A DNA stretch of 64,000 bases from Ruegeria sp. Alg231-54 (GTDB taxonomy: Bacteria; Pseudomonadota; Alphaproteobacteria; Rhodobacterales; Rhodobacteraceae): contig NZ_FREZ01000005.1 in NCBI RefSeq assembly GCF_900143525.1, positions 3-64,002 on the forward strand. Direction: 5' to 3'. This document shows positions 513 to 2,966 of this stretch, piece after piece (within the stretch, counting starts at the first letter, position 1; every line of letters starts with the position of its first letter). The notes below the pieces were generated by a model. That model was not told where the DNA came from and searched no databases. It saw nothing but the letters and a program-made list of their open reading frames with translations. A program made the position numbers and the translations under genes.

Positions 513-1274
513 ATGATCCAGAGAATCGCTTTCCTCGCCAGCGACGTCAAAGTGGCCCAAACAGCCCGCGACGTGCTGGTGAAACGTTATGGAAACGCGG
601 CACCGCGGGATGCCGATGTGGTCGTTGCACTGGGCGGTGACGGGTTCATGCTCCATACGCTGCACAGCATGCAGCACCTGGATACGCCGGTTTATGGCAT
701 GAACCGAGGAACAATCGGCTTTCTGATGAACGAGTTCCACGAAGCCGACCTTATGGCCCGTCTGGGCGAAGCCGAGGAAGAAGTCATCAACCCACTGGCC
801 ATGCGTGCGATGGATCAGTCAGGTAAGATGCACGAAGCGCTGGCGATCAACGAGGTGTCGCTGCTGCGCGCAGGGCCACAAGCCGCGCGCCTCAGGATAA
901 GTGTCGATGGCCGTGTTCGCATGGATGAACTGGTCTGTGATGGCGCGTTGTTGTCCACGCCTGCCGGATCGACCGCCTATAACTACTCGGCTCACGGCCC
1001 GATTCTGCCAATTGGATCAGATGTTCTTGCCCTGACGGCTATTGCTGCATTCAGGCCACGTCGGTGGCGCGGTGCGCTGTTACCCAAGATCGCCAAGGTG
1101 CGTTTCGATGTGCTGGATGCGGACAAACGCCCAGTCATGGCCGATGCAGATTCGGTTTCATTCCCTGATATCGACTGGGTCGAGATCCGCTCTGAACCTG
1201 CAATCCAGCACCGCATTTTGTTCGACCCTGGGCATGGGTTGGAAGAGCGCCTGATATCCGAGCAATTCACCTAA
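513..1274 (+). CDS. nadK: NAD kinase
   Basis: A 254-residue cytoplasmic enzyme that phosphorylates NAD+ to NADP+. The GGDG diphosphate-binding motif is at residues 41-44 within VVALGGDGFML. The family NE/D motif appears as AINEVSLLR, and the nucleotide-binding block as DGALLSTPAGSTAYNYSAHGP. Length and the opening IAFLASD match alphaproteobacterial NadK. The start at 513 is chosen because the first beta strand follows at once. An in-frame ATG at 468 has a better purine-rich leader (GGGGAAAGGT) and would add 15 residues, so the start is uncertain. The gene stands alone, followed by the putative small RNA at 1355. Confidence 0.93.
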   Translation: MIQRIAFLASDVKVAQTARDVLVKRYGNAAPRDADVVVALGGDGFMLHTLHSMQHLDTPVYGMNRGTIGFLMNEFHEADLMARLGEAEEEVINPLAMRAMDQSGKMHEALAINEVSLLRAGPQAARLRISVDGRVRMDELVCDGALLSTPAGSTAYNYSAHGPILPIGSDVLALTAIAAFRPRRWRGALLPKIAKVRFDVLDADKRPVMADADSVSFPDIDWVEIRSEPAIQHRILFDPGHGLEERLISEQFT

Positions 1275-1305: not shown

Positions 1306-1321
1306 TGTGAAGCAGTTCACA
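1306..1321 (+). promoter_or_regulatory. CRP-type palindromic operator in a class II position
   Basis: The sequence reads TGTGA (1306-1310), six bases, TCACA (1317-1321). This is the exact consensus half-site pair recognised by CRP-family activators in enterobacteria. A -10-like TAATCT lies at 1343-1348. If transcription begins at G1355, the first base of a closing stem, the operator is centred at -41.5, the canonical class II activation distance. There is no obvious -35 box, as expected of an activator-dependent promoter. Which CRP/FNR family member would bind in this organism is unknown. Confidence 0.55.
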
Positions 1322-1354
1322 TGAGCTTCATTAACTTTCCGCTAATCTGATCTT

Positions 1355-1524
1355 GCCCGGAGAACACGTCTCGGTGGGAGTGAGTGGCCACCAAACGACG
1401 TTTTCGAACGATTGCGCAGTTTACGCGCTGGCGAGGGTAGGTGGTGCTACGCTCGTTAATGATATCTGGGCTTATTTTAGTAAGCTGACCCCGGGCACAA
1501 AACCCCGGGGTCTATTTTCGTTTT
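1355..1524 (+). ncRNA. Candidate structured small RNA ending in an intrinsic terminator
   Basis: About 130-170 nt downstream of nadK with no plausible coding frame but layered complementarity. GCCCGGA (1355-1361) pairs with TCTGGGC (1465-1471). Inside this, GAGTG (1378-1382) pairs with CGCTC (1450-1454), CCACC (1388-1392) with GGTGG (1440-1444), and GCGC (1414-1417) with GCGC (1425-1428). This gives one long, interrupted hairpin closed at its ends, followed by a strong terminator. An interrupted rod of this type resembles 6S RNA, but I cannot match 6S consensus blocks, so the family is open. A promoter-like TAATCT and a TGTGA-N6-TCACA palindrome lie just upstream. Confidence 0.45.
1487..1524 (+). 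terminator. Intrinsic terminator of the candidate small RNA
   Basis: GACCCCGGG (1487-1495) and CCCGGGGTC (1504-1512) form a 9-bp GC-rich stem with an eight-base loop, followed by the T-rich run TATTTTCGTTTT. It points along the plus strand and ends just before the convergent amidase stop codon at 1533. Confidence 0.8.
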
Positions 1525-1532
1525 GGGTCGCA

Positions 1533-2966
1533 CTACGTGCCCATCTTCTCCCACAACGGGAAGCACATTTGACCGACGCGCGCCTCAATTGCGGCGGCGG
1601 CATCCACGGCCATATCTTCACGCCAGCGGCGGGCAGCGATCTGGACATTGATCGGCTGCGGGCCGCTGGACAAATCCGCCAGCCGGGCCGGAACGCAAGC
1701 GGCGGGCAGGCCAAGGAAGTTCATCGCATAGGAATAAACGGCGCAGCCAAGAACCTCGTGCACCCCTTCGGCACCTTCGGTGTCCCGATCCGGCTTGAAG
1801 AATGGTTGCGGCAGGAAGGGCGACAAGACCAAAGCATAGTCTTCCATAAACAACGACCATTCACGGGCATAGTGGCTCCGCTTGGCCAACATTCGGATCA
1901 GGTCGGTTTCAACTATGGGAGGGAATTCCTGAAAATAGACGTCAAAGATCTCGCGGATGGTTTCAGATCCCGTGGCCTTGATGTCGCTTTGCATCAGGGT
2001 CAGGACTTCGCCCATCAAGGCGCGATAGCCTGACCGGCCGCACTCAAAGACATCCGGCGGGTCGATCTCTTCCACCATATAACCGGCGTCGACCAGCGCA
2101 TCGCGGGCCGTGTCCAGCGCCTTGTCGACCTCGGGGTGCAGCGCATAGCCAAAGGTGTTTTTGGTGAAGGCCACTTTGATCGGATCATGCATGGCTTCCC
2201 CGCGCCACGGCATTGAAACGTGAAACGGATCGCGCGGGTCGGCGGCGATCAGGCTGGGCATGGACAGATGCAAGTCGGCGGCCGAGCGGGTGATCAGCCC
2301 CTGGACCGACATGGATTGTGCTAGAATTCCGCGTTCGACCTGTTGGCTGGGGTTCCACGCAGGGACGCGCCCCAGCCCTGGTTTGACTGTGACCGCGCCA
2401 TTGGCCGCCGCGGGAAACCGCAGACTGCCGCCAATGTCGTTGCCATGCGCCAGCGCACCGATGCCTGCCATCACGCCCGCACCGGCCCCGCCCGAAGATC
2501 CACCAGGCGAGATATGGCGGCCCCACGGGTTATGTGTCCGGCCATGCAGCGGGTTGTCTGTATCGGCGCGGAATGAAAATTCCGGCGTGTTCGTCCGTCC
2601 AATCACGATGGCCCCGGCATTCTGCAGATTGCGCACAACAGGCGCGTCTTCGGGTGCGATCACATCTTTCAGGGCCACCACACCGTTTGAAGTCGCGTGC
2701 CCCTTTTGATCGACGTTAATCTTGATGGTGACGGGAACACCGTGCAGCGGACCGGCAGGGGCGCCGCCCGCCACAGACGCATCCAGATCACGTGCGCGTT
2801 CCAGCGCTTCGGTGCTCAGGTCCTCAACCACCGCATTCAGATTTGGATTCGCCTGGTGCATCCGGTCGATGGCATTTTGGGTGACCTCAAATGCGCTCAA
2901 CTCACCGCTGCGGGTTAAGGCAGTCAGGTCGGTGGCGTTCAGACGCCAGATATCGGTTTGTGTCAT
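1533..2966 (-). CDS. Amidase (amidase-signature family)
   Basis: A 477-residue hydrolase of the amidase-signature superfamily, which cleaves carboxylic amides with a Ser-cisSer-Lys triad. The lysine is in VTIKINVD, the cis-serine region in PGGSSGGAGAGVMAG, and the nucleophilic serine in the following GNDIGGSLRFPAAANG. Length is typical. The substrate cannot be read from sequence. The absence of gatC/gatB neighbours argues against a tRNA amidotransferase subunit, so it is probably a stand-alone catabolic or detoxifying amidase. The start at 2966 follows an AGCGAGGG leader. The gene is monocistronic and converges on the small-RNA terminator. Confidence 0.9.
   Translation of the reverse strand: MTQTDIWRLNATDLTALTRSGELSAFEVTQNAIDRMHQANPNLNAVVEDLSTEALERARDLDASVAGGAPAGPLHGVPVTIKINVDQKGHATSNGVVALKDVIAPEDAPVVRNLQNAGAIVIGRTNTPEFSFRADTDNPLHGRTHNPWGRHISPGGSSGGAGAGVMAGIGALAHGNDIGGSLRFPAAANGAVTVKPGLGRVPAWNPSQQVERGILAQSMSVQGLITRSAADLHLSMPSLIAADPRDPFHVSMPWRGEAMHDPIKVAFTKNTFGYALHPEVDKALDTARDALVDAGYMVEEIDPPDVFECGRSGYRALMGEVLTLMQSDIKATGSETIREIFDVYFQEFPPIVETDLIRMLAKRSHYAREWSLFMEDYALVLSPFLPQPFFKPDRDTEGAEGVHEVLGCAVYSYAMNFLGLPAACVPARLADLSSGPQPINVQIAARRWREDMAVDAAAAIEARVGQMCFPLWEKMGT

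Follow-up and report, generated by a model that had tools for sequence, protein, structure and literature searches.

Small RNAs that are activated by CRP and small RNAs that feed back on their own activator are both known kinds of regulator. CyaR of Escherichia coli is activated by cAMP-CRP, OmrA and OmrB feed back on the mRNA of their own activator by acting on ompR, and GcvB aims a GU-rich unpaired segment at CA-rich mRNA leaders. The RNA described here, which is encoded beside nadK in Ruegeria, resembles CyaR in its predicted activation by cAMP-CRP, OmrA/OmrB in its predicted feedback on the mRNA of its activator, and GcvB in a GU-rich segment, predicted to be unpaired, that would be aimed at CA-rich leaders. 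It differs from CyaR, which is enterobacterial and has another structure and other targets, from OmrA/OmrB, which answer to a response regulator instead of CRP, and from GcvB, which has another regulator and another sequence. Our Rfam results contained no CyaR match, sequence comparison with OmrA/OmrB was through the Rfam search only, and by Rfam the RNA is not a member of the GcvB family.

In the literature searched, a CRP-controlled RNA beside nadK appeared in no title or abstract opening. In R. pomeroyi DSS-3, Northern blot and RT-qPCR have revealed an RNA of 160 nt named trans69 (Rivers et al. 2016, PMC4809877). In the excerpted text of that study, it is numbered between cis68 (SPO2736) and cis70, which is antisense to the serine hydroxymethyltransferase SPO2940, and its predicted targets are SPO0934 and the adenylate/guanylate cyclase SPO3650, not crp. 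Most blotted RNAs were higher in stationary phase, trans69 not being singled out by name, and neither Crp nor cAMP occurs in the main text (PMC4809877). Its length is close to the approximately 164 nt predicted for the nadK-side RNA, and its number places it beside the serine hydroxymethyltransferase RNA cis70, as the window analyzed here (the whole stretch of 64,000 nucleotides) carries a serine hydroxymethyltransferase gene beyond nadK, adjoining it. This placing is ambiguous because SPO1572 (cis50) is a second serine hydroxymethyltransferase, and the listed targets SPO0934 and SPO3650 differ from the crp target predicted below. With size and order of identifiers fitting, and two possible anchor genes, trans69 may be the nadK-side RNA. 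R. pomeroyi had no record among 44 pattern matches in the genome collection.

The locus is flanked by nadK and by an amidase gene that converges on it, and its elements are as follows.

516 to 1274, forward strand: nadK (NAD kinase; Pfam PF01513 and PF20143), upstream neighbor, start codon not settled
1306 to 1321, forward strand: putative CRP-type operator TGTGAAGCAGTTCACA, a perfect TGTGA-N6-TCACA with its center at 1313.5, that is, at -41.5 from G1355
1343 to 1348, forward strand: putative -10 element TAATCT (TAnnnT in 54/54 Ruegeria loci, operator distance fixed in 53/54)
1355 to 1518, forward strand: predicted small RNA gene of about 164 nt with presumed +1 at G1355 (fold z-score -3.59, conserved columns, paired changes)
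1355 to 1361, forward strand: 5' arm of the closing stem, GCCCGGA, pairing with 1465 to 1471 (helix 1)
1366 to 1370, forward strand: 5' arm of helix 2, ACGTC, pairing with GACGT at 1397 to 1401
1373 to 1392, forward strand: hairpin GGTGG/CCACC (helix 3), which presents the loop (100% paired, 4/5 pairs with two-sided change)
1380 to 1387, forward strand: exposed loop motif GUGAGUGG (RNA nt 26-33), putative seed (mean unpaired probability 0.97)
1414 to 1428, forward strand: GCGC hairpin (helix 4; 100% paired, changes one-sided only)
1429 to 1458, forward strand: hairpin of helix 5 with inner loop GUGGUG at 1441 to 1446 (98.1% paired, 6/11 pairs with two-sided change)
1465 to 1471, forward strand: 3' arm of the closing stem, TCTGGGC, pairing with 1355 to 1361 (from fold and alignment)
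1487 to 1518, forward strand: predicted intrinsic terminator, GACCCCGGG at 1487 to 1495 and CCCGGGGTC at 1504 to 1512, then TATTTT at 1513 to 1518
1533 to 2966, reverse strand: amidase gene (Pfam PF01425), convergent neighbor

A DNA search of 101 genomes (our own and 100 relatives) returned a match in all 54 Ruegeria genomes and in none of the 47 others bar 20 nt in one (G100), which was kept out of the alignment. In two of the 54 (G025 and G031) the match spans only about 85 nt, and our own genome holds one full copy, its eight further matches being only 15-22 nt long. In every one of the 54 loci nadK lies upstream, and the amidase gene converges on the RNA in 52 of them (not found in L061 and L062). 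Column identity in the 54-sequence alignment was 0.89 for the RNA versus 0.45 for the downstream flank. The operator was perfect in all aligned loci except L062, where it ends in TCACT, and identity was 1.00 and 0.996 for the operator halves, 0.60 for the spacer, and 0.79 for the -10 box. From the start of the operator to the end of the -10 box there are 43 nt in 53/54 loci and 44 nt in the remaining one, and the column of the presumed +1 is always a purine (G in 48, A in 6). The operator and TAATCT element of the preliminary description are both present in the sequence, and the center at -41.5 that it had calculated for a start at G1355 agrees with a spacing kept in 53/54 Ruegeria loci and a purine at this predicted start in all of them. 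With TGTGA-N6-TCACA at -41.5, a -10 box at a fixed distance, and the +1 so placed, the layout is that of a class II CRP-dependent promoter. The whole genome contains 6 perfect operators, compared with 1 occurrence of the reversed control pattern, and by our estimate for uniform random sequence of 4.9 Mb approximately 5 are expected by chance. For this reason the operator alone is weak evidence; its conservation in the aligned genomes, unlike the operator by itself, goes beyond chance.

The RNA from 1355 to 1524 folds at -68.9 kcal/mol (z = -3.59), and none of 200 shuffled sequences was as stable. In the trimmed Ruegeria alignment, 98.4% of the pair cells were standard, and two-sided changes were found in 21/41 pairs versus 5.6 in shuffles. 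The closing stem was 96.4% paired with two-sided change at 3/7 pairs, helix 2 was 96.1% paired with such change in 5/5 pairs, and the terminator stem (helix 6) was 100% paired with such change in 3/9. Control structures slid by 1-3 columns gave 38-44% paired cells and 3-8 pairs with two-sided change. This alignment had also served to derive the structure, which gives the structure an advantage over its slid versions in paired cells; the count of two-sided changes is the firmer measure. The preliminary description had pointed to the closing stem GCCCGGA/TCTGGGC, to nested arms, and to a GC-rich terminator, and had suggested looking for compensatory changes in relatives; all these elements are present, some pairs of the stem covary, and arms and operator are both kept in the 54 Ruegeria genomes, with covariation beyond that of the shuffles.

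An open frame of 226 amino acids with a TTG start (1353-2033) overlaps the RNA, and a small protein gene instead of an RNA might be considered. This is very improbable: when all six frames were examined, no reading frame was open across the 54 Ruegeria sequences, for each frame there was some sequence without an open run longer than 16-25 codons (maximum 55-59 codons), and the changes track base pairing. Small frames beginning at the GTG of the loop motif were also discarded, as by our reading their peptides differ and mostly end early. With promoter-like elements, a conserved structure, a terminator, and no conserved open reading frame, the locus has the features of an intrinsically terminated small RNA gene, as predicted from sequence.

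The length and the closing stem are superficially like those of 6S RNA, for which a check had been proposed. A search of 900-2200 against Rfam 15 found no known family near any gathering score for the nadK-side RNA, and the covariance model of 6S RNA (RF00013) gave no match in this interval up to an E-value of 10. The only 6S-like locus found in the genome is located elsewhere (G000:C27:817526-817677); its score of 32.1 bits is below the family cut-off of 46.4. The subthreshold match to STnc400 (RF02058; 16.5 bits, E = 4.2) compares with a gathering score of 80 bits, and this identity was rejected. We consider it extremely improbable that the nadK-side RNA is 6S RNA or another RNA catalogued in Rfam 15. 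The proposal of a new regulatory RNA controlled by a CRP family protein fits the conservation, the covariation, the lack of an Rfam family, and the co-occurrence with CRP described below; its novelty is qualified by trans69, which could be the same RNA.

The Crp-type helix-turn-helix family is matched 17 times in the genome, and 9 of these matches exceed the cut-off. The protein encoded at G000:C27:789533-790198 was singled out for the perfect operator that immediately follows its gene and for its combination of a cyclic-nucleotide (cNMP)-binding domain with a Crp-like helix-turn-helix. Among proteins of solved structure, CRP/FNR regulators match it best, and its helix GATREAVSK is similar to the GASRETVNK of the top-ranking one. 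An orthologue (E ≤ 1e-30) was found in 11/12 genomes with a nadK-side operator versus 1/13 without (Fisher p = 3.3e-5), in a set of 25 genomes chosen by us, in which the carriers are close relatives, so that the test is not independent of phylogeny. Within this count, G198 has an operator with one mismatch, and G184 one imperfect and one perfect site. The two exceptions are G266, with the operator and no CRP orthologue at this threshold, and G058, with the orthologue and no nadK-side operator. At least four further Crp/Fnr-type proteins are encoded in the genome (L181, L182, L184, and L185), which counts against the assignment. Judged on these sequence comparisons, the CRP orthologue is likely the regulator of the nadK-side RNA, and the co-occurrence together with the operators beside crp points indirectly to CRP as the protein that would bind and activate at the nadK-side operator. 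In R. sphaeroides, no protein analogous to CRP is predicted according to the excerpted text of PMC4344238.

The genome with the operator and no orthologue, G266, is 2.8 Mb in size, is filed in another genus, and is possibly a reduced relative that lost crp; its RNA (L111/L198) follows a perfect operator and reaches 178.9 bits against the Ruegeria model. Our own genome contains 30 matches to class III adenylate/guanylate cyclase domains (L206-L235), and therefore cyclic-nucleotide signaling should matter in it. Two further perfect operators (L175 and L180, operator at 1501-1516) have TAATGA and TACATT at the distance of a -10 box and precede frames that we read as sugar-transferase-like and small membrane-protein-like, making them candidate CRP targets.

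The operator that directly follows crp has an RNA candidate of its own:

L179 (G000:C27), 1501 to 1645: second structured RNA candidate led by a CRP-type operator, directly downstream of crp

It comprises the operator, TAATGT spaced from it like the nadK-side -10 box, a hairpin, and a terminator. The hairpin loop ATCATCCCCGATATCTGTCC (20 nt) is invariant in 19 aligned Ruegeria sequences, and two-sided change was found in 10 of the 30 predicted pairs, a total in which the operator itself accounts for 5. This RNA was matched in 19/19 Ruegeria genomes and 0/12 other genomes searched, and no Rfam family matched it at its gathering score. An operator with at most 2 mismatches was present within 450 nt downstream of crp in 12/12 genomes, 8 of them perfect, compared with a chance expectation of about 0.19 loose operators per 450-nt stretch. 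Over the 12 whole crp loci (43,902 bases) loose operators are not enriched overall (13 versus 11.9 in Markov resamplings), and 12 of these 13 lie in the 450-nt downstream stretches; the 8 perfect ones compare with an expectation of 0.05. We discarded the idea that the two RNAs pair with each other, as by eye the complementary letters are not conserved.

NadK was found in 126/129 family genomes, and from these matches we chose 60 nadK-downstream regions of other genera, mostly the most similar ones. A search of these with the full model gave three matches above 20 bits. In seven of the 60 (L115-L119, L124, and L125), an operator with no more than two mismatches precedes what we presume to be a short RNA, which ends before the next gene and has a body unlike that of Ruegeria; loose operators with two mismatches at scattered places in some regions were left uncounted. 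A pattern that makes no use of nadK (operator-N50..66-GTGAGTG) was present in 10/394 family genomes, the reversed control being absent among the matches listed, and in all 10 the match adjoins nadK. In 8 other genera, the GTGAGTG loop is retained 58-62 nt downstream of the operator. This spacing is 58 nt in our own genome, G045, G266, G124, G131, and G136, 59 nt in G481, 60 nt in G292, 61 nt in G320, and 62 nt in G165. A covariance-model search of the 394 genomes yielded 6 matches, with 7 of approximately 700-1,700 candidates per genome scored among the matches listed, and because so few candidates were scored its misses were not used as absences. One of the matches (G223, 26.8 bits) was set aside as chance, as it lies between frames that we read as superoxide dismutase-like and thymidylate synthase-like, not beside nadK.

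When the RNAs of the pattern-matching genomes were folded (all but G045), with the ends placed by eye at presumed terminators, the motif was more unpaired than the whole RNA in 9/9 (means of 0.66-0.97 versus 0.32-0.45), half of it being predicted as paired in G292. The nine RNAs differ in their stems and range from 102 to 201 nt. The short versions in G292 (L196, 102 nt) and G136 (L197, 106 nt) join the loop hairpin to a terminator through a linker. In G184 (L124, 293-690) two successive operator-led units follow nadK, the first with several GAGTG copies in possible hairpins and the second without GTGAGTG. The same loop on hairpins with unrelated stems is what one would expect of a protein site, and together with the repeated GAGTG copies of G184 this could mean that the RNA acts via a protein, the GUGAGUG loop titrating or recruiting an RNA-binding protein. 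We know of no RNA-binding protein for GUGAGUG, and the complement of the loop in crp leaders favors pairing, which makes action through a protein improbable.

This complement was found after ATG-proximal sites and cyclase genes had given nothing convincing. Within 30 nt before an ATG, CCACTCAC had 22 matches in our own genome (19 distinct sites) versus 17 for the control, without a convincing gene start, and its single occurrence in the window is the complement of the RNA gene itself. The class III cyclases were rejected as targets, as only 1/30 matched over 7 nt close to the start of its frame. Upstream of crp, CCACTCA or CACTCAC is located 27-36 nt before the start in 18/19 Ruegeria genomes (L273 has CCACTCG) versus 0.47/19 expected from dinucleotide shuffles, these genomes being relatives, so that the counts are not independent. 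The words most shared among the 19 leaders were the 6-mer CACTCA (18/19), the 7-mer ACCACTC (17/19), and the 8-mer ACCACTCA (16/19), whose first A is not complementary to the RNA. All three are shared more widely than the presumed ribosome-binding word CCGGAG, which 15/19 leaders have. On both strands of the same 19 loci, CCACTCA/CACTCAC occurs at three other places (in L262, L266, and L268). The leader of our own species has CCACTCA, a match of 7 nt and not 8.

The seed of an Hfq-dependent trans-acting small RNA would be a conserved unpaired segment with its complement in an mRNA leader; the complement of the loop, which is conserved and predicted to be unpaired, is present in 18/19 Ruegeria crp leaders and in 0/11 leaders of other genera, though 7 of these 11 carry the loop at a near-fixed distance. 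When windows were ranked by their duplex energy with a 14-nt loop segment, the best one fell in the leader in 3/19 Ruegeria loci, and the other 16 have 2-34 better windows; in our own species the best duplex window within the leader covers the start codon instead of the CCACTCA site. In several species the leader site is predicted to be partly paired. Because the site is absent from all 11 other genera and the leader ranks first by duplex energy in only 3/19 loci, we limit the link between the nadK-side RNA and crp, which the sequences make likely, to Ruegeria. From the position of the site alone, we infer repression rather than activation of crp.

These same results could also be read as those of a CRP-activated base-pairing RNA that in reality acts on other mRNAs, with a CA-rich translation element or a coincidence accounting for the word in the crp leader. 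The loop is conserved in genera without the site, the leaders are CA-rich (CACCAC in 17/19 Ruegeria), and the duplex-energy rank is unremarkable in most loci; set against this, the loop complement coincides with the 6-mer and the 8-mer that are most widely shared among the 19 leaders, and 18/19 leaders with the site contrast with the 0.47/19 of the shuffles. We regard this reading as unlikely, but one to be taken seriously. For pairing of loop B (GUGGUG) with CACCAC we make no claim, as the L268 leader lacks CACCAC while the RNA of its genome keeps loop B.

The explanation that we favor, and to which we give somewhat better than an even chance, is a free-standing small RNA gene that is activated by CRP and whose loop pairs with the crp leader in Ruegeria and represses crp. 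In this mechanism, the CRP orthologue (G000:C27:789533-790198), with cyclic nucleotide bound, would sit at -41.5 and activate RNA polymerase in the class II manner. Comparison shows the predicted product to be a folded RNA of about 164 nt with an intrinsic terminator and the hairpin loop GUGAGUGG at nt 26-33, which would serve as an antisense seed. In Ruegeria, the partner of the loop would be the CCACUCA(C) of the crp mRNA leader, which lies 27-36 nt ahead of the start codon, with the putative ribosome-binding site downstream of it. This pairing would lower crp translation, and CRP would therefore limit itself through the RNA. Since the same loop is present in genera whose crp leaders lack the site, further, older targets are implied.

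More broadly, and tentatively, as something a little short of an even proposition, Ruegeria and its relatives may use two CRP-activated RNAs in a CRP circuit, of which the first is encoded beside nadK and the second immediately downstream of crp. The first would repress crp translation via its loop in Ruegeria, and across genera nothing but the operator, the loop, and a nearly constant distance would have been kept while the rest of the RNA was rebuilt. The preliminary description had named no target, so that crp mRNA in Ruegeria is an added prediction. The two RNAs are candidate families without an Rfam match, and the nadK-side RNA would be a case of an RNA body turning over while loop and operator distance persist. 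A conserved RNA that is probably driven by CRP, together with the predicted feedback on crp, would make a circuit that can be tested directly in a genus serving as a marine model.
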